Assembly: GCA_003021505.1 (NCBI GenBank)
Contig: PXPT01000086.1
Span: 1-41,010 of the forward strand
DNA length: 41,010 nt
Origin: Cyanobacteria bacterium QS_4_48_99
Lineage (GTDB): Bacteria; Cyanobacteriota; Cyanobacteriia; Cyanobacteriales; Rubidibacteraceae
Direction of reading: 5' to 3'
How positions within the stretch are numbered: the stretch's first letter is position 1; each line of letters begins with the position of its first letter. The translations under genes were made by a program, and so were the position numbers. Positions 24,476-39,383 of this stretch are shown piece by piece. The notes beneath the pieces are model-generated. The model searched no databases. It was not told the DNA's origin and worked only from the letters and a program-made list of their open reading frames with translations.

Positions 24476-25932
24476 TCACGAGGCAATCTTGACTGTTCCC
24501 ATCATCCCCAAGTCTTCATGACCCAAGAGGTGGCAGTGATAAACCGATTTACCAGGAAAATCGCTAAAGTGGGCGCGAAGGCGTACCGTTTCTCCTGCCG
24601 GGACTAAAACCGTATCTTTCCATGCCGGATAAGGTGCTGGTTTCCCATTATGCTCGATAACTTGAAAGGGATTGACATGCAAGTGAAAGGGATGATCCAT
24701 CATGTCAGGATCGACGTTAGCCACTTCCCAATCTTCCACAGCATTTAACTTTACTTGAGTATCGATGCGCTCAGAATCGAAGGCTTTGCCGTTGATGAGA
24801 AAGACCATGCCTTTGCCAGGAGCCATCCCCATAGAAAGCTCGAAGCGGCGTAAGGTTTGAGGTTCTGGCAGTGCCTCTACAGAGAGGAGCCGCTCAGGCA
24901 ACGGCAGTGGGGAAATCGAACCGCTATAGGCAACCGTCGCCAATGTTTCAGGATTATCTTGCTGAGAATTTCCCCATCATGCCATCCCCACCCATCATCT
25001 CCATTTCTCCATGGTTATAGGCGAGATTCAACAAGCGGTACTCTCCTGGTTCCCTCTCCCCTCGCACCAGTACCTCTGCTCCTTCTCCTGGAGACAGCAG
25101 TAGTTCTTTGAGTTCTACAAGTTCAAATAGAGAACCGCCATCCGTTGCCATCAGATAAAAGGGATGGTCTTCGAGGACAAGGCGTTAAAAGCGAGAAGGA
25201 GAAACATTGAGCAAGCGCAGTCGTAGCAATCCACCCCCCGGAACTGACAAGGAAGGGTTGAGTTGACCATTCACTGTGATCAGTTGCCCCTCTCGTCCCA
25301 TCATCTGCTCCATATGGTTGGGATACGCAATCCGTCCGTTTCTACCTAGCTCAAAATCCTGTAAGACTAGGAATTATTCTTGAGCTGCTTTAATATCGGG
25401 AATTTCATCGAGTTCTCCCCGTACCACAAACAAACCAGCTAAACCGCTAAACACCTGCTCTGCTACCAAGCCGTGACGATGGGGATGATACCAAAACGTG
25501 CCAGCGGAGTGATTTTGGGGAATGGTAAATTCGTAGGTTAAAGTTTCCCCTGCCGGAATGTCGAGAAAAACATTATCCGCGTTGCCAGTCGGAGGGACGT
25601 GCAAACTGTGGTAGTGCAGGTTTGTGGGTTGAGGGAAGTTGTTGGTGAAGCGAATCCGCACCGTATTTGCTGGTTTAGCTTCCAGTCGGGGACCGGGAAC
25701 TTGTCTGTTGTAGCTCAACAGATGTGCTTGGTTGCCCCCCAGATTCAAAGAATTAGAACTCGCTTCCAAGATCAACCGCCAAAAGACCATCTGTGCTGCT
25801 ATGAAATTGAGAAAGAGATTTCAGGGTGAGAGCCTTTTGCTTGTTCCCCTGACCACACTGGCTCAATCAAACAGCACCAGCACTGCTGGCACTAAGAAGG
25901 AGAAATTGCCGACGCTTGAAACGCTGTCTCAT
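24476..25932 (-). pseudogene. Multicopper oxidase (CueO/bilirubin-oxidase-like), decayed
   Basis: The sequence follows a periplasmic multicopper oxidase. It begins MRQRFKRRQFLLLSASSAGA, a twin-arginine signal with a lipobox-like LSQCG after it. Copper sites follow in order: NLHYHSLHVPPTG (type 2/3), FWYHPHRHGLVAEQ (type 3), DHPFHLHVNPFQV, and VYHCHLLGHEDLGMMG (type 1/3). Disruptions: TGA at 25867 in the signal peptide, a frameshift near 25755, TAA at 25374, TAA at 25185 (SRF[stop]RLVLEDHP, where Tyr is expected) and a frameshift near 24953. All copper ligands survive, so the decay is recent. It follows the cupredoxin gene by 20 bp and would have been the last gene of the copper operon. Confidence 0.85.
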
Positions 25933-25952: not shown

Positions 25953-26456
25953 TTACTTTTCTACTGCAACAACGCCGCGAAACATATTCATACCACAACT
26001 AAATTGATATTCCCCCGGCTGTTGAGGGGTAAATTCGACTGGAGTGACTTGATCGAGGGTTAAATTAGCAGCAATGTAAAAATCAGGTAATAAGACCCTC
26101 TCTAAGCAGCTATTGGGATCACGGCGAAGGAAATTAAGCCTAACAGGTTGTCCGGTTTTCACCACCACCCGCGCTGGCTCATAACCTCCGTCTACTGTGA
26201 TAGTTACTTCTTGAGTTCCTTGCTTAGTTGGTACTTTTTGAGAAATTTTTTTGCTTAGTAAAAACCACCACAACTCTAAGCCAATCAAGGCGGAACCACC
26301 TGCTGTCACACCAATTTTTACGGCTAGGGGTTGCTCAATTTGGCGAAATTGATTTGCTTTCCCGGATGATGTCTCAGCGGATTGGACACCCTGTGCTATT
26401 CCGAAAAGCATTCCTAAACTTGCTAGGCTTCCCCAGATAAGTTTTTTGCTAAACAT
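25953..26456 (-). CDS. Membrane-associated cupredoxin-domain protein
   Basis: The 167-aa protein has a signal peptide (KKLIWGSLASLGMLFGIAQGVQSAE), a second hydrophobic helix (about 47-66: VKIGVTAGGSALIGLELWWF) and a C-terminal cupredoxin fold from about residue 80. The fold has EVTITVDGGYEPARVVVKTGQPVRL, SCLERVLLPDF, VEFTPQQPGEYQFSCGMNMFRG. Cys in FSCGMNMF and the two Met can bind copper, and an upstream Cys (NSCLERV) takes the place where plastocyanins have His. It probably binds or passes copper on the outer face of a membrane. It lies 63 bp after the copper ATPase gene, same strand. Confidence 0.8.
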   Translation of the reverse strand: MFSKKLIWGSLASLGMLFGIAQGVQSAETSSGKANQFRQIEQPLAVKIGVTAGGSALIGLELWWFLLSKKISQKVPTKQGTQEVTITVDGGYEPARVVVKTGQPVRLNFLRRDPNSCLERVLLPDFYIAANLTLDQVTPVEFTPQQPGEYQFSCGMNMFRGVVAVEK

Positions 26457-26519
26457 GGGTACTTATTCCATTTGGGATTTGGGATTTGGGATTAGGTAAT
26501 CAAGGAAAACTGAATGGCT

Positions 26520-28781
26520 TTATCCCTTGCTAGGCTGAAAGTTACGCAGGCGGAGGGCATTTGTTACTACAGAAACCGAACTAAACGCCATTGCTGCCCC
26601 GGCAATAATGGGGTTGAGTAACCAGCCAAAGATGGGGAACAAAATTCCAGCGGCGATGGGAATTCCTGCGGTGTTGTAGATGAAGGCAAAGAAGAGATTT
26701 TGGCGAATGTTGCGAATGGTGGCATTGCTGAGTTGAATGGCAGTGACAATGCCTTGTAATTCTCCCGAAATCAGGGTAAGGTCAGAAGCAGCGATCGCCA
26801 CATCCGTTCCAGTGCCAATCGCAATGCCAACATGGGCTTGTGCTAGGGCAGGGGCATCATTAATGCCATCGCCCACCATCGCTACGATTTTGTCTTCTTT
26901 TTCTTGCAGGGCAACGACTTGTGCCGCTTTTTGGTCAGGACGCACTTCCGCAAGGACGCGGGTAATGCCAGCTTCACGCGCGATCGCTTCTGCGGTTTTT
27001 TGATTATCTCCTGTCAGCATTACCACTTCTAACCCCAGTCGGCGCAGGGACTTAACCGCAGCGGCGGATGAGGGTTTGAGAGCATCGGCAATGGCGATTA
27101 AGCCTTCGATTTTGCCATCAACTGCCATCCAAACGGCGGTTTTCCCCTCTGTTTCCCAGGCTGCTTTGCGCTCTTGCAGGGCTTCGGTAGCAATCCCTAA
27201 TTCTTCCATCCAGCGAGAAGTCCCAATTTGCACGAAGCGCTCTGAGACTGTTCCTTGCACGCCACTTCCAGAAATTGCTTCAAAATTTTGAGCGTCTACA
27301 AGTTTTACCTGTTGAGATTGGGCATAGCTCACCACTGCCTCAGCGAGGGGATGTTCAGAATTGCGTTCTACCGCCGCAGCCAAACGGAGGAGTTTTAGCT
27401 CATTGTGGTTAGCAGTGCCACCCACGGTAACAAAGTCGGTAACGGTGGGTTTTCCGACAGTGAGTGTCCCTGTTTTGTCCAGGACAATCGTTTGAATTCT
27501 GTGAGCGAGTTCTAAACTTTCCGCACCCTTAATCAGGATGCCATTTTCTGCTCCTTTACCCGTTCCCACCATCACAGACGTGGGAGTCGCTAAACCCAAG
27601 GCACAAGGACAGGCAATAATCAGCACTCCTACCGTGGTGATGAGAGCAAGAGTAAGGTTGCCCATGACATTAAACCAAGTTACAAAAGTGGCGATCGCCA
27701 CTGCAATCACCGCAGGCACAAACCACCCTGTCACCTGATCAGCAATGCGCTGAATGGGGGCTTTAGAGCCTTGAGCATCCTGCACTAGTTGGACAATTTG
27801 TGCCAAAACCGTATCTTTACCCACTCGCGTTGCCCGGAACTTAAAACTCCCAGTTTTATTGATTGTCGCGCCAATCACCTCATCCCCAGACTGCTTTTTG
27901 ACAGGCACACTTTCTCCTGTCACCATCGCTTCATATAGGGTGGATCTCCCCTCAGTTATTTCACCATCGACGGGAACTTTTTCACCAGGACGCACTAAAA
28001 TAACATCATCAATCTGGACTTCCTTAATAGGAACATCTATTTCCTGTCCATCACGAATCACCCTGGCATCTCTTGCTTGCAAGCCCATCAGTTGACGAAT
28101 CGCTTCCGAGGTTTGCCCCTTAGCGCGACTCTCAAACAGTCGTCCTAGCAATATTAAGGTAATAACAACCGCTGCTGTTTCGTAGTACACTTGCGGCGTT
28201 AAGCCTTGGTTGATCAAGAAGCCAGAGAAAAGAGTTGCAAACAACGAATAGAAGAACGCGGCGCTTGTGCCTAGGGCAATCAGCGTATCCATTGTTGCCG
28301 CGTGGTGTTTAAAGGCTTTCCAAGTACCCGTGTAGAACCTATAACCACACCAAAACTGCACTGGTACTGTCAGCGCTAATTGAAACCAGGGGTTATGCAA
28401 CCATGCAGGAATCCAGGGTAGGTTTACCCCAATCATCGCGGGGAGAGAACCAACTATCAGGATGACACTAATTACGCCTCCCACTGCTACCTTAATGAGC
28501 AATTCCCGTGACTCGGCTTTGCGGGCAGCTTTCTCAGCATCATCTTCGCCAGTAACCATTTCTTGATCCTGGACTGAGGAGGCGGAGTAGCCCGCATCAT
28601 CGATAGCATCCTGAATTGCTTCTAGATTCGTTTTTTGAGAGTCATACTTAACTGTGGCTTGTTCCATGCCAAAGTTAACGCTGCACTCACTGACTCCTGG
28701 AACGGAGTGAACGGCTTCTTCGATGGTGCTAGCGCAGGAGGCACAACTCATGCCTCGCAGTTTCAGGGTGAGGTTTTCCAT
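26520..28781 (-). CDS. copA: Copper-translocating P1B-type ATPase
   Basis: The 753-aa protein has an N-terminal heavy-metal domain with GMSCASCAST (residues 10-19), eight predicted membrane helices, the TGES actuator motif, the CPC metal site (IACPCALGLATP), phosphorylation site DKTGTLTVG (Asp 435), HPLAEA in the nucleotide domain, and GDGINDAPAL. CPC plus a Cys-x-x-Cys metal domain points to Cu(I) export or delivery to the thylakoid (CopA/CtaA/PacS group); the sequence does not decide which. Adjacent HMA chaperone and cupredoxin support copper. It lies 125 bp after the chaperone gene, probably in one operon. Confidence 0.95.
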   Translation of the reverse strand: MENLTLKLRGMSCASCASTIEEAVHSVPGVSECSVNFGMEQATVKYDSQKTNLEAIQDAIDDAGYSASSVQDQEMVTGEDDAEKAARKAESRELLIKVAVGGVISVILIVGSLPAMIGVNLPWIPAWLHNPWFQLALTVPVQFWCGYRFYTGTWKAFKHHAATMDTLIALGTSAAFFYSLFATLFSGFLINQGLTPQVYYETAAVVITLILLGRLFESRAKGQTSEAIRQLMGLQARDARVIRDGQEIDVPIKEVQIDDVILVRPGEKVPVDGEITEGRSTLYEAMVTGESVPVKKQSGDEVIGATINKTGSFKFRATRVGKDTVLAQIVQLVQDAQGSKAPIQRIADQVTGWFVPAVIAVAIATFVTWFNVMGNLTLALITTVGVLIIACPCALGLATPTSVMVGTGKGAENGILIKGAESLELAHRIQTIVLDKTGTLTVGKPTVTDFVTVGGTANHNELKLLRLAAAVERNSEHPLAEAVVSYAQSQQVKLVDAQNFEAISGSGVQGTVSERFVQIGTSRWMEELGIATEALQERKAAWETEGKTAVWMAVDGKIEGLIAIADALKPSSAAAVKSLRRLGLEVVMLTGDNQKTAEAIAREAGITRVLAEVRPDQKAAQVVALQEKEDKIVAMVGDGINDAPALAQAHVGIAIGTGTDVAIAASDLTLISGELQGIVTAIQLSNATIRNIRQNLFFAFIYNTAGIPIAAGILFPIFGWLLNPIIAGAAMAFSSVSVVTNALRLRNFQPSKG

Positions 28782-30414: not shown

Positions 30415-31178
30415 TTAAAAATGGGTGAGGTATCCACCATCGATAGCCAAAACCTGTCCAGTGACATAGGATGCAGCGGGCGAAGCAAAGAAAACCACAG
30501 CACCAGCGATTTCTTTTGGCTCCCCCCAACGACCTAGGGAAGTTCGTTTTTCCATCCAAGCGGCGATTTCTGGATTCGCAACGATGTCTGCATTGGTTTC
30601 AGTGGCGAAAAAGCCTGGGGCAACACCATTGACAGTTATTCCAGAGGTTCCGAGTTAGGCAGCAAGCGCCCAAGTTAGTGCTTCGACTCCTCCTTTGGCG
30701 GCAATATAAGCAGCGTCCCCCGCGCTTGCAATGGAACCAGCGATTGAGGTAACGTTAATGATTCTTTCCTCACCCTGGTTACTCATCAGCCGCGCTGCTT
30801 CTCGGCACAGATGAAAGGGAGCAATGAGATCGACATCGACAAGTCGGGGCACCGCATCCATTTCAAACTCGAATAACCTGCGGCGCACGCACACCAATTA
30901 TTGACAAGGATATCGAGCCTCCCGTATTGCTCTCGGATGCTGCTAAACGCTTTTTCTACGGCTGCTTCATCCGTAATATCTAACTGCAACGACGAAGCTG
31001 ATCCGCCGATTGAGGTGATACTCGCAACTGCACGCTTAAGATTTTCCTTGCTTCGCCCATTGACTATCACCCTAGCGCCAGCACTAGTAAGTGCCTTGGC
31101 GATTTCCAGTCCTAATCCCAGGCTCCCTCCAGTAACCAGGGCGATTTTTCTATTTAATCAAAATCCAGGTGGTGTCAC
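30415..31178 (-). pseudogene. Short-chain dehydrogenase/reductase, disrupted
   Basis: From GTG 31178 (AAGG upstream) the sequence follows a classical SDR: KIALVTGGSLGLGLEIAKAL (NAD(P)-binding TGxxxGxG), LDILVNN, RIINVTSIAGSIASAGDAAY with catalytic Ser and the YxxxK motif (AYIAAKG), then SGITVNGVAPGFFATETN and a C-terminus SYVTGQVLAIDGGYLTHF. TGA at 31158 follows PPGF near the start, a frameshift lies near 30897 after VNN, and TAA at 30655 follows WALAA (Glu or Gln expected before LGTSG). Repaired, it would be about 254 aa, like gluconate 5-dehydrogenase or FabG-type enzymes. All catalytic residues are still there. Confidence 0.83.
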
Positions 31179-32122: not shown

Positions 32123-33607
32123 CTAGCCGACTACTTTCAAGGTTGTCAGGGTGGCATCGCTACAACCTATAATTTTGCCGCCGAAGGCGAGGACTTGTTG
32201 CAAGTAGTCGAGGGAAGCGGAAGTAATGGTTTCTCCGGGCATCAGCACTGGAATTCCTGGCGGATAGGGACAGACAAGTTCCGCACTAATATAGCCCATC
32301 GCCTGCTCGAATAGTAAGGATTGAGTAGGGGAAAAGAAAGCATTGCGGGGAGACAATTGGGATGGGGGCGAAGTGCGGGGTTGATAGCACTCTGGCTGCT
32401 GAGGAGTGATAGTTGTTTGATGCTGTTTTGCTAGAGCTGTCAAGGATTGCACTAGCTTTTCGATATCCGCTGCGGTGTTGCCTAAGGTGACGATGAAAGT
32501 CAGATGTTGGTGTATGGGTAACTCAGCAGTAACCCCAAATTGCTCGCGTAAAATTTCATCTGCTTCAAATCCGCTTAGATTGAGTTGGGAAACATTGACA
32601 GTAACCCGTGTGCAATCCAGTGTTATGAAACCGGGAATGGGCTGATTAGAAGTCGATTCTAGGACAGACAAGCCGGGAATCTGCTTAATTTTAGTGCTGG
32701 CATCGTCAGCGAGTTGTAAGGTTTTTGTCATCAACGGTTTGCCCTGCAGTGCCATTTGCTGCCTTACCCCATCCAGAGAAGCCAAGAGTAGATAGCTGGG
32801 GCTGCTGGACTGCAAAAGTTGTAGTGCCTGAGAAATGCTTTGGGCATCGATGTGATTTCCCTGGAGATGGAGCATGGATGCTTGCGTCATTGCCCCTAAA
32901 ACTTTGTGGCTCGATTGCACTGTTAAGTCAGCACCGGCGGAGAGGGCAGAGGGAGGCAAGTCTGGGTGAAAGGCGAAGTGTGCCCCGTGTGCCTCGTCTA
33001 CGAGTAAGGGGAGGTGGTGTTGATGAGCGAGATGAGCAATCGCTTCCACATCTCCACAAATTCCCTGATAGGTGGGGTAGAGCATCATTACGGCTTGGGC
33101 ATCGGGATGCTGCTTTAAGGCGGCTTCTACTGCCGCTGGGGTGATGCTGTAGGCAAGATCAAAGTTGGGATCGTATTCTGGGTAAATATAGATCGGAATC
33201 GCACCGGAGAGGATTAAACCTGCGATCGCAGATTGATGAATATTGCGAGGCAGAATAATTTTCTCCCCTGCGTGGCAAGTTGCCAGCATCGCCGCCATTA
33301 CCCCACAAGTGGAACCATTTACCAGAAACCAGGTTTTTTGTGCCCCAAACGCTGCCGCTGCTAGCTGTTGTGCTTCCCCAATCACCCCCTCCGGGGCAAA
33401 CAAATTATCCAACTCTGGCAGTTCCGGCAAATCTGCCTGAAATACCAATTCTCCCAACAAGTTTGCCAGTGGCGGAGCAATTCCCTGTCCTCGCTTATGC
33501 CCTGGCGAGTAAAACGCAGTATCCGGCTTGTTAGCGCATACCTGCAAGGTATCGAGTAAGGGAGTTTGAGATTGAGATGGGAAGAAATCGTCTGAAGTAG
33601 GGAACAT
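32123..33607 (-). CDS. Orn/Lys/Arg decarboxylase-family PLP enzyme
   Basis: The 494-aa protein of the SpeA/LdcC-like major domain family (fold I aminotransferase-like) carries TAFYSPGHKRGQG and LPELPELDNLFAPEG near the N-terminus, FLVNGSTCGVMAAMLA, PRNIHQSAIAGLILSGA, LLVDEAHGAHFAFHP (Asp and His contacting the cofactor) and SSHKVLGAMTQAS, whose Lys should form the Schiff base. The size matches the short cyanobacterial/Gram-positive form without a wing domain. The product could be agmatine, cadaverine or putrescine; substrate is not readable from motifs. Ends at 32123 on the minus strand, 322 bp before cbiT starts. Confidence 0.9.
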   Translation of the reverse strand: MFPTSDDFFPSQSQTPLLDTLQVCANKPDTAFYSPGHKRGQGIAPPLANLLGELVFQADLPELPELDNLFAPEGVIGEAQQLAAAAFGAQKTWFLVNGSTCGVMAAMLATCHAGEKIILPRNIHQSAIAGLILSGAIPIYIYPEYDPNFDLAYSITPAAVEAALKQHPDAQAVMMLYPTYQGICGDVEAIAHLAHQHHLPLLVDEAHGAHFAFHPDLPPSALSAGADLTVQSSHKVLGAMTQASMLHLQGNHIDAQSISQALQLLQSSSPSYLLLASLDGVRQQMALQGKPLMTKTLQLADDASTKIKQIPGLSVLESTSNQPIPGFITLDCTRVTVNVSQLNLSGFEADEILREQFGVTAELPIHQHLTFIVTLGNTAADIEKLVQSLTALAKQHQTTITPQQPECYQPRTSPPSQLSPRNAFFSPTQSLLFEQAMGYISAELVCPYPPGIPVLMPGETITSASLDYLQQVLAFGGKIIGCSDATLTTLKVVG

Positions 33608-33859
33608 ACATCGTCGAGCATAGATGAAGGGACATGATGCCTATGCTTTATCACTAGCCAAAGAGACTTTCAAAGTTAATAACCTAGAGGGATAAGAATT
33701 CCAGTGCTTAATGTTTTTTTATCGACTAAAAACAGACTAACACTTTTTATGCTGCGTTAAGAAAAGACTTGCTGCAAACTGTTCAGTTTTAAAATTATTT
33801 CAATTTTGGGAACCCTGGTAGGTAATACCAAAGTTGACTCACATGAGGAAATTGATACG

Positions 33860-34374
33860 ATGGCAAAAAATAGGTACGTCAAGCAAAGCGATTATTAGAT
33901 CACGGAAAAGAGGGCTACGCACTATTTTCTAGTGGCAATCTTTTCTATAAACACTATTAGCTAATGAATGTCTCACGGCAACGAGTATCTCAACTCATAG
34001 AAGTTGCAGAAAAATAACTTGCCACACTTCCTGTGGAAACAATAGTCAAAGTGAGTAACTAAAACAAGGAAGAGAAGCAATAACTAACGCCTGAACAAGA
34101 GTCAGTACGTGCAGCTTCTAAACTTGTTGATTCAACAATACCGAAGCTATCTTCCAGCTCCTCTGATTCTACGACACACCAACTACCTGACAAATTCCAC
34201 TGGTGGGAAGTTTTAGGAGTAAATCCGAACGCTACACCTCAAGAGGTGCAGACGGCTTATCGCAAGTTAATACAGGAGGATCATCCTGATGTAGATTCCT
34301 CGTGGCAAGCGAGGAGTTTAGCGCAACGCATCAATGCAGCGTATGAAGAGTACAAAACGTCTCTGTCTTCATAA
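33860..34374 (+). pseudogene. J-domain (DnaJ-like) protein with four in-frame stops
   Basis: ATG 33860 opens MAKNRYVKQ. After a small shift near 33885 the frame runs on as AKRLLDHGKEGYALFSSGNL and so to TAA 34372, interrupted by TAG 33958, TAA 34015, TAA 34060 and TAA 34081. Each stop sits where Gln fits (EK[stop]LATLP, KQ[stop]LTPEQ). The C-terminal 60 residues are a J domain: HWWEVLGVNPNATPQEVQTA, the HPD motif in QEDHPDVDSS, and AQRINAAYEEYKTSL. Repaired, it would be about 165 aa, with a helical N-terminus and a Ser/Thr-rich linker. J domains stimulate Hsp70 ATPase. The shift fits loss of one GCAA unit from a GCAAGCAA run. Confidence 0.78.
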
Positions 34375-34508
34375 CTAGTTTGGGGGAAGCACCTGGAATA
34401 CTCACGGGCTTGAGCTTGGAGCTACCGTCCTATAACCTCAGCCCGTACCTGAGCCAGGATAAAATAGGAATGAGCCTGTGTCTAAGTAAAAAACACTAAC
34501 TTTCTCGT

Positions 34509-35600
34509 ATGCTGAGAGCCGGAATTGTCGGACTTCCCAATGTGGGTAAATCTACCCTATTCAATGCCCTAGTTGCCAATGCTAAGGCGGATGCTGCTAA
34601 CTTTCCTTTCTGCACGATTGAACCCAATGTGGGTGTGGTTCCCGTGCCAGATAAGCGATTGGAAGTGCTAGCGAAAATGTCCCAATCAGAGCAAGTCGTC
34701 CCCACTCGGATTGAGTTTGTCGATATTGCGGGTTTGGTTAAAGGTGCTAGCCAAGGAGAAGGGCTAGGGAATCAGTTCCTAGCTAACATTCGGGAAGTGG
34801 ATGCAATTGTCCATGTGGTGCGCTGTTTCGATAGCGACGACATCATGCATGTGTCTGGTTCAGTTGATCCGGTGCGAGATATTGAGGTGATTAATCTGGA
34901 GCTAGCTCTAGCAGATTTGGCGCAAGTGGAGCGACGAATCGAACGTACCCGCAAAGAGGCACGCAAAAACAAAGATGCCCAGCAGGAACTAGAAATCCTA
35001 GAAAAGTTAAGTGCTGGCTTGAACGAAGGCAAAACTGTACGGCAAATCGATTTAACTGAAGATGAGGCGGCATCTGTGAAGTATCTCGGTTTACTAACGG
35101 GAAAACCGATCATTTATGCTGCCAATGTCTCCGAGGAAGATTTAGCAACCGGGAATGAGTTGGTAGAGCAAGTACAGCAAGTTGCTAATACCGAAAATGC
35201 CAGCGTTGTGGTGATGTCTGCCCAAGTCGAATCGGAACTAATCGAGCTGCCAGAAGAAGAGCGGGGTGACTTTCTCGAATCTCTCGGCGTGGAAGAAGGT
35301 GGACTTAAATCGCTGATTCGGGCCACATACGAACTTTTGGGGTTGCGAACTTACTTAACTACAGGTCCCAAAGAAACGCGCGCCTGGACAATTTACACGG
35401 GAATGCGTGCCCCCCAAGCTGCTGGAGTGATTCACTCTGATCTCGAGCGCGGCTTCATCCGAGCCGAAACAATTGACTACGATGCTCTGGTGCAGTCAGG
35501 CTCGATGAATGCTGCCAAGGAAAAGGGTTTAGTTCGCTCGGAAGGAAAAGATTACGTCGTGCGGGAAGGGGATGTGATTCTTTTCCGATTTAATGTTTAG
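34509..35600 (+). CDS. ychF: Redox-regulated ATPase YchF (Obg-like)
   Basis: The 363-aa protein is full length for YchF. G1 is GIVGLPNVGKSTLFNAL at the N-terminus; FPFCTIEPNVG is G2; DIAGLVKGASQGEGLGNQFL is G3 with the switch II region; IIYAANVSEEDL replaces the GTP-specific NKxD with NxxE, which gives ATP preference. A coiled coil (VERRIERTRKEARKNKDAQQ) and the C-terminal TGS domain (TYLTTGPKETRAWTIYTGM; YVVREGDVILFRFNV) follow. YchF binds ribosomes and affects the oxidative stress response. Separate promoter likely, since the preceding gene is dead. Confidence 0.96.
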   Translation: MLRAGIVGLPNVGKSTLFNALVANAKADAANFPFCTIEPNVGVVPVPDKRLEVLAKMSQSEQVVPTRIEFVDIAGLVKGASQGEGLGNQFLANIREVDAIVHVVRCFDSDDIMHVSGSVDPVRDIEVINLELALADLAQVERRIERTRKEARKNKDAQQELEILEKLSAGLNEGKTVRQIDLTEDEAASVKYLGLLTGKPIIYAANVSEEDLATGNELVEQVQQVANTENASVVVMSAQVESELIELPEEERGDFLESLGVEEGGLKSLIRATYELLGLRTYLTTGPKETRAWTIYTGMRAPQAAGVIHSDLERGFIRAETIDYDALVQSGSMNAAKEKGLVRSEGKDYVVREGDVILFRFNV

Positions 35601-36803: not shown

Positions 36804-38606
36804 ATGAGACAGATTTTAACTGTACTGGGGAGCGTATTAACAGTAGGTGGCAGTTTGGGTTGGGCTTCTGTGGCACAGGCAGAGCAATCTCTCCATCTCA
36901 CCTATCCCCCGAAGCAACACGAAACAACAGCAGAGCAAATTTTTCTGATTGGCACAGCCCCGCCAGAGGGAAAGGTGTTAGTCAATGGTAAGCCCATTCC
37001 TCGCAGCGAAGCTGGGCATTTTGCCCCCAGTTTTCCTTTAAAGATGGGAGAGAATCAGTTTACGCTGCGCTACCGCAACCAGGAAGTCCAGATTGAGGTA
37101 ACACGGACTTCTCCTGAACCGAAAATGCCAGCCGGGATAGGTTTTGCGGAAGACTCTCTCACCCCTGCCAGAGATATGGCAAGACTGCCGGAGGAGTTGA
37201 TTTGTTTTGGAGCAGTTGCGCCCCCAAAGGCGACGGTTTCGGTAGAGCTTGGCACTCACACCATTCCGCTTTCACCCCAACCGCAAGCGGTTCAGTTGCC
37301 GCCCAGTTCTGCCGCTTTGACGGGAGAAATTCAACCCGATTCTCGCTCTAGTGTCGGTCAATACAAAGGATGCACCACTTTCTCGCAACCTACTAACTTA
37401 GGTAATCCCCTCTTCCAACTGCGTAAAAATGGCAAAACAGTCAGCCAGCAGAGTTCAGCAAGCGTGGAGATTCTTTCACCAGCCAATTTAGATGTAGTGG
37501 AGGTGACTGCCGAGGAAGGAGATGCCCGAACTGGACCAAGTACCAGTTATTCTCGCCTCACTCCCTTACCAAAAGGGACAACAGCGGCAGTTACAGGCAG
37601 AGAGGGGGAGTGGTTACGTCTCGATTACGGTGCCTGGATTAAGGAAGCTGAAACCCGTCTCCTGGCTAATGCTATTCCGCCGAAGTCGCTGATTCGCAGT
37701 ATCTTGTCTCGGCAAGCAGAAGGAGCAACAGAGGTTATCTTTCCGCTAACGACACCCGTGCCTGTGAGCGTGCAACAGGGGGATAATACTTTCACTCTAA
37801 CGCTGCACAATACGACTGCCCAAACTGATACGATTCGCCTTGATAATGATCCCCTCATTAAGCGCCTGGATTGGCAGCAAGTGACACCCACTCAAGTGCA
37901 ATATACGTTTCAGCTCAAACCTGAGCAGCAGTGGGGCTATGACTTGCAATATGAAGGGACGAGTTTGATTGTGTCGCTGCGGTATCCGCCCGAAGGGGGG
38001 CAGAGGAGCAGAAGGGCAGAGGAGCAGGGGGGAATGTATACTAATCGTCCTCTTGCGGGAGTGGAGATCTTGCTTGATCCCGGACATGGAGGGGAAGAGT
38101 TGGGTTCAAAAGGACCAACTGGATATCCAGAAAAGGATGTCAATCTGGTTGTTTCTAAGCTGTTGGAGAAGGAACTGAGGCGGCGAGGGGCAATTGTATA
38201 TATGACGCGGGAGAGGGATAAGGAGGTGTCGTTGCAGCAGCGAGTGGAGATGATTAATTTAGTCGAACCCGCGATCACGCTTTCTATCCATTATAATGCC
38301 CTACCCGATAGCGGCGATGCGATTAATACTGCTGGTGTTGGGGCGTTTTGGTATCATCCTCAAGCTCACAATTTAGCTGTGTTTTTACAGAATTACTTGG
38401 TTGAAAAACTGGATCGTCCCTCTTACGGTGTCTTTTGGAACAATCTCGCGCTGACTCGTCCCCACACTGCCCCAGCGGTGCTACTGGAGTTGGGATTTAT
38501 GATTAATCCCACTGAATTTGAGTGGATTACCAATCCGCAGGCACAGGAAAGATTGGCAAATACCCTTGCAGATGGCATTACAGAATGGTTTCTAGATACT
38601 CGATAA
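36804..38606 (+). CDS. N-acetylmuramoyl-L-alanine amidase (Amidase_3) with SH3 and AMIN-like domains
   Basis: The 600-aa exported enzyme has a signal peptide ending SVAQA (about residue 23), a beta-rich N-terminal region with a PPEGKVLVNGKPIPRSE loop, an SH3b-like domain (about 230-285: ARTGPSTSYSRLTPLPKGTT), an AMIN-like segment (about 310-395) and a C-terminal Amidase_3 domain. Zinc ligands are the His in LLDPGHGGEE, Glu in KDVNL-adjacent EKD, His in LSIHYNALP, and catalytic Glu in APAVLLELGFM. It cuts the muramic acid-peptide bond in septal peptidoglycan. Between AMIN and amidase domains, residues about 396-412 (GGQRSRRAEEQGG) are encoded by a purine-rich repeat. Confidence 0.92.
   Translation: MRQILTVLGSVLTVGGSLGWASVAQAEQSLHLTYPPKQHETTAEQIFLIGTAPPEGKVLVNGKPIPRSEAGHFAPSFPLKMGENQFTLRYRNQEVQIEVTRTSPEPKMPAGIGFAEDSLTPARDMARLPEELICFGAVAPPKATVSVELGTHTIPLSPQPQAVQLPPSSAALTGEIQPDSRSSVGQYKGCTTFSQPTNLGNPLFQLRKNGKTVSQQSSASVEILSPANLDVVEVTAEEGDARTGPSTSYSRLTPLPKGTTAAVTGREGEWLRLDYGAWIKEAETRLLANAIPPKSLIRSILSRQAEGATEVIFPLTTPVPVSVQQGDNTFTLTLHNTTAQTDTIRLDNDPLIKRLDWQQVTPTQVQYTFQLKPEQQWGYDLQYEGTSLIVSLRYPPEGGQRSRRAEEQGGMYTNRPLAGVEILLDPGHGGEELGSKGPTGYPEKDVNLVVSKLLEKELRRRGAIVYMTRERDKEVSLQQRVEMINLVEPAITLSIHYNALPDSGDAINTAGVGAFWYHPQAHNLAVFLQNYLVEKLDRPSYGVFWNNLALTRPHTAPAVLLELGFMINPTEFEWITNPQAQERLANTLADGITEWFLDTR
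37996..38034. repeat. Purine-rich repeat inside the amidase gene
   Basis: GGGGGGCAGAGGAGCAGAAG followed by GGCAGAGGAGCAGGGGGG: two near-copies of GGCAGAGGAGCAG, the kind of sequence otherwise seen between genes here (for example 30355-30385). It keeps the reading frame open and encodes a linker. Confidence 0.6.
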
Positions 38607-39182: not shown

Positions 39183-39238
39183 TCAATTATACCTAATTCA
39201 CGGTATAAATTAGCACCACATCCGAATGGTTTACTCAC

Positions 39239-39383
39239 AAACTGCCCCAGCGGTGCTACTGGAGTTGGGATTTATGATTAATTCCACTGAATTTGAGTAG
39301 ATTACCAATCCGCAGGCACAGGAAAGATTGGCAAATACCCTTGCAGATGGCATCACTGAGTAGTTCCAGAATAAGCGCTAGTT
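39239..39383 (+). pseudogene. Duplicated 3' fragment of the amidase gene
   Basis: From ACTGCCCCAGCGGTGCTACT on, this stretch repeats amidase codons APAVLLELGFMINPTEFEW, ITNPQAQERLANTLADGITE (original at 38465-38588) nearly base for base. TGG has become TAG at two Trp positions (FE[stop]ITNP and TE[stop]F) and Pro has become Ser. The copy lies about 775 bp downstream of its source, with the minus-strand ComFB gene between them, so a larger duplication or a ComFB insertion has occurred. It is dead. Confidence 0.88.

Follow-up and report, generated by a model that had tools for sequence, protein, structure and literature searches.

The analysed DNA, hereafter the window, is a stretch of 41,010 nucleotides. 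Between a gene for an Orn/Lys/Arg decarboxylase and ychF it contains an intergenic interval, in which a plus-strand reading frame interrupted by stop codons leads into a J domain. The frame of this domain is referred to as the J frame, and the features of the locus are:

32123-33607, minus strand: Orn/Lys/Arg decarboxylase gene, flanking the interval
33608-34508: intergenic interval between the decarboxylase gene and ychF, holding the probable gene remnant
33860-33898, plus strand: ATG-led frame of 12 codons, ending at TAG 33896; the J frame is reached from it only via an assumed frameshift
33889-34083, plus strand: interrupted stretch in the J frame, with the stops TAG 33958, TAA 34015, TAA 34060 and TAA 34081; no recognised homologue; coding-like GC bias at codon positions
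34084-34374, plus strand: open 3' part of 96 codons with the J domain (PF00226 match 34201-34347; HPD 34282-34290), called the J part
34509-35600, plus strand: ychF (YchF), flanking the interval

The J domain scored 42.4 bits against PF00226 (curated cut-off 27.8; E 7.8e-11) with the HPD motif kept, which places it in the J-domain family, and its frame terminates at TAA 34372-34374. That the domain is well kept, as stated in the first-pass annotation, was borne out: of 18 positions that at least 80% of 29 relatives have in common, it retains 17. These relatives were picked for likeness to this very domain, and by that criterion 15 of them deviate themselves at one position or more. An open run of at least 96 codons in some forward frame occurs in 7% of 901-base sequences of the same composition. 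Since such a run is not rare by chance, recognition of the J part rests on homology rather than on length. Between the last stop, TAA 34081, and the J domain none of the usual start codons (ATG, GTG, TTG) is present. A genome search revealed neither a second copy of the interval nor a close paralogue, an Rfam scan of 33500-34600 gave no match, and no repeats were found around the J-domain sequence.

Direct reading of the window confirmed that TAG 33958-33960, TAA 34015-34017, TAA 34060-34062 and TAA 34081-34083 share the frame of the J domain and its HPD motif. The single small shift that had been proposed near 33885 fared less well. While the ATG at 33860 exists, it lies in another frame, and the shift is an assumption made to reach it that no homologue backs. 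Only after this assumed shift does the stop count of four hold; the uncorrected J frame contains a fifth stop, TAG 33871, so that two TAG and three TAA are counted in 33862-34371. Nor is the otherwise continuous course of the frame more than chance would give. The 65 codons of 33889-34083 contain four stops, whereas 20,000 Markov sequences with matching dinucleotide frequencies averaged 4.39, the probability of four or fewer being 0.55. Of those Markov sequences that had four stops, 38% lacked TGA. The stop density of the stretch is thus at chance level; the feature that goes beyond it is the homology of the final 96 codons to J domains.

The base composition of the interrupted stretch suggests that it once coded in the J frame. 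GC contents at codon positions 1, 2 and 3 are 0.52, 0.26 and 0.32 in this frame, a bias as strong as that being reached by two of 310 noncoding windows (overlapping, from the same genome, those around the remnant excluded), and the remaining two forward frames show the opposite. The codon-usage score of the stretch speaks against former coding: it is unremarkable among the noncoding windows, 122 of 310 scoring as high, and low in comparison with coding windows, 15 of 386 scoring as low. The adjacent J part is clean, with no lesion in its 96 codons against four stops in the 65 codons before it. If lesions were evenly spread, the chance of all four falling into the first part would be about (65/161)^4 = 0.03 by our own arithmetic. 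An undamaged J part behind four stops may mean that the loss is recent, that the first part was never coding or that the J part is still constrained; the clean J part by itself suggests either that the stretch is not former coding sequence or that there is partial constraint. As to whether the stretch is the decayed N-terminal part of the J gene itself or unrelated sequence, the base composition slightly favours the former.

Homologue searches assigned no identity to this part and yielded no orthologue for comparison at the stop positions. When the whole read-through protein was compared with 100 relatives, the J domain accounted for the matches, the strongest of which were to C-terminal J domains, among others those of WD40-like proteins. 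The interrupted stretch was searched by itself, its stops written as X or as Q. Genomes of the order (291), the class (388, run both ways) and the phylum (386), in overlapping samples, contained nothing convincingly similar, and neither did plasmids, phages and viral contigs. The two best matches were rejected, a WD40 protein (E 0.0022 with X, 7.0e-4 with Q) and what, by eye, is presumably a transposon-type ATPase (E 0.0017 and 5.2e-4, respectively). As E-values apply to single genomes and 388 were searched, both matches are expected by chance. In one match of chance-level quality, Q occupies the first stop position and L the second. Pfam yielded no match for the X version of the stretch and only sub-threshold ones for the Q version, and no WD40 match was detected upstream of the J part. 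PHROG 9210 was discarded as uninformative, because it matches through the J domain alone and does so in 100 of 100 relatives as well. The search of the literature, at the level of search listings, brought up nothing on this locus. The surroundings of ychF were compared in 30 genomes, the window's own and 29 others. The decarboxylase gene lies upstream of ychF as here in 11 of these 29 relatives, and a J-like stretch within 1500 bases upstream of ychF was found in none of them.

The first-pass annotation had stressed that all stops lie at plausible glutamine positions and had attributed them to a mutation process biased towards C-to-T. The genetic code makes TAA and TAG the products of a single C-to-T change in CAA and CAG. 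The first statement is therefore true of every such stop, and the pattern by itself is uninformative. The proposed bias can be compared with other damaged genes of the window, of which at least three were detected by a scan for remnants that covered some of its gaps:

24482-25745, minus strand: broken multicopper oxidase gene (laccase-like), with a frame switch and stops near 25376 and 25187 at H and Y of the two best PDB relatives
30430-31148, minus strand: broken short-chain dehydrogenase gene, with a frame switch near 30890 and TAA 30655-30657 at E of the two best PDB relatives
39238-39365, plus strand: 3' remnant of an amidase gene, 128 bases, 94.5% identical to 38463-38590, with two TGG-to-TAG changes

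The frameshifts and the stops at E, H, Y and W positions in these genes lend no support to a process biased towards C-to-T. A pure C-to-T process was also rejected for the amidase remnant, whose parent sequence (38463-38590) forms the 3' end of the amidase gene lying upstream: its seven differences in 128 bases comprise three C-to-T/G-to-A changes, two other transitions and two transversions, in a small sample whose substitution directions assume the intact copy to be ancestral. The mixed lesions of these genes are as in ordinary decay and point neither to glutamine nor to a single C-to-T process. The case illustrates that any stop-at-glutamine claim needs an orthologue behind it. The multicopper oxidase remnant adjoins a cupredoxin-domain gene and a heavy-metal P-type ATPase gene (25953-28781).

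Should TAA and TAG be read as glutamine by suppression or recoding, the J gene would be functional, and readthrough of the four TAA/TAG codons would yield a full J-domain protein in an otherwise standard-code bacterium, in an amount set by stop suppression. Both notions are extremely improbable, even though the J frame runs undamaged beyond the four codons, lacks TGA throughout 33889-34371 and shows in its interrupted part the coding-like GC bias that so few noncoding windows reach. Against them stands the translation apparatus. Among the tRNAs read, the anticodons UUA, CUA and UCA are absent and the only tRNA-Gln has UUG; the suppressor tRNA for which the first-pass annotation suggested a search did not turn up among them. 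This survey comprised 41 matches, with 41 loci read by ARAGORN and 150 of 190 candidates scored; tRNA-Leu(UAA), which in cyanobacteria often carries an intron, is missing from its list. Two release-factor matches were obtained, one above the RF1 family cut-off and the other, we infer, RF2. Nearby genes terminate normally, as had been noted: the 22 long open reading frames end in TAA (10), TGA (7) or TAG (5), that is, 15 of them in one of the two codons that would have to be reassigned. The termination machinery of the cell thus looks standard. Moreover, the stretch with Q at its stops found no homologue, and stops in the neighbouring broken genes fall at E, H, Y and W of relatives or of the parent copy. 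That the gene is in fact intact and its stops stem from sequencing or assembly mistakes is likewise very unlikely. Although the assembly is a draft in 196 contigs, four substitutions within 126 bases would be needed, every one creating a stop, in a genome with a completeness of 99.9 and at a site flanked on both sides by long intact open reading frames.

It is somewhat more conceivable, though still unlikely, that the J part is made as a short J protein, begun at a non-standard codon such as ATA or ACG or by ribosomes that reinitiate downstream of TAA 34081. Its undamaged state, the chance-level stop density of the stretch before it and the existence of J proteins of 108-111 amino acids in relatives (L031, L033) would fit such a product. 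However, ATG, GTG and TTG are lacking from 34084 to the J domain, in codon score the J part falls short of the average coding window, and plus-strand promoter-like matches near it are weak (9/12) and confined to 33834-33861 and 34019-34046. Ordinary loss of a J gene, which the first-pass annotation had also preferred, remains the best reading, and the interval between the decarboxylase gene and ychF most probably holds the non-functional remnant of a J-domain gene of the DnaJ co-chaperone type, in a genome that is presumably cyanobacterial, judging by its genes and closest relatives. This conclusion is supported by an intact J domain that lacks a usual start, from stops at chance density and from the 29 relatives without a J-like stretch upstream of ychF, and further from the lack of a paralogue or second copy, the other broken genes nearby, the failure to find a stop-reading tRNA and the standard ends of open reading frames. 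What contrasts with it is a J part without decay, all lesions being confined to the preceding stretch. The 3' part is an intact J domain severed by stops from any usual start codon, and the 5' part of the gene was presumably lost through ordinary mutation or rearrangement. On its own the remnant matters little, as it is one among several gene remnants in the window.

Comparison with known J proteins revealed two groups of similar architecture. Cyanobacterial proteins with WD40 repeats and a J domain, for example L008 and L013, resemble the remnant in having a C-terminal J domain behind a W-W-x-V-L motif, and the J part is 41% identical to that of L008 and 54% identical to that of L013. These proteins are intact and carry the domain after WD40-like repeats (read by eye), whereas the remnant shows no WD40 match upstream of it. 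The short J proteins L031, L033 and L162 of relatives are, like the remnant, small with a C-terminal J domain. They are intact as well, and their N-terminal part is not recognisably similar to the interrupted stretch. Their N-termini are short and rich in lysine and arginine, with the pattern YST...R(V/I)P...V..L(I/V)EKF and, by eye, a ribbon-helix-helix-like start; Pfam, applied to two of the three, detected the J domain only. With bacterial pseudogenes the remnant shares a recognisable domain, in-frame stops and the lack of a usable start, while, unlike them, its J part is itself free of lesions.
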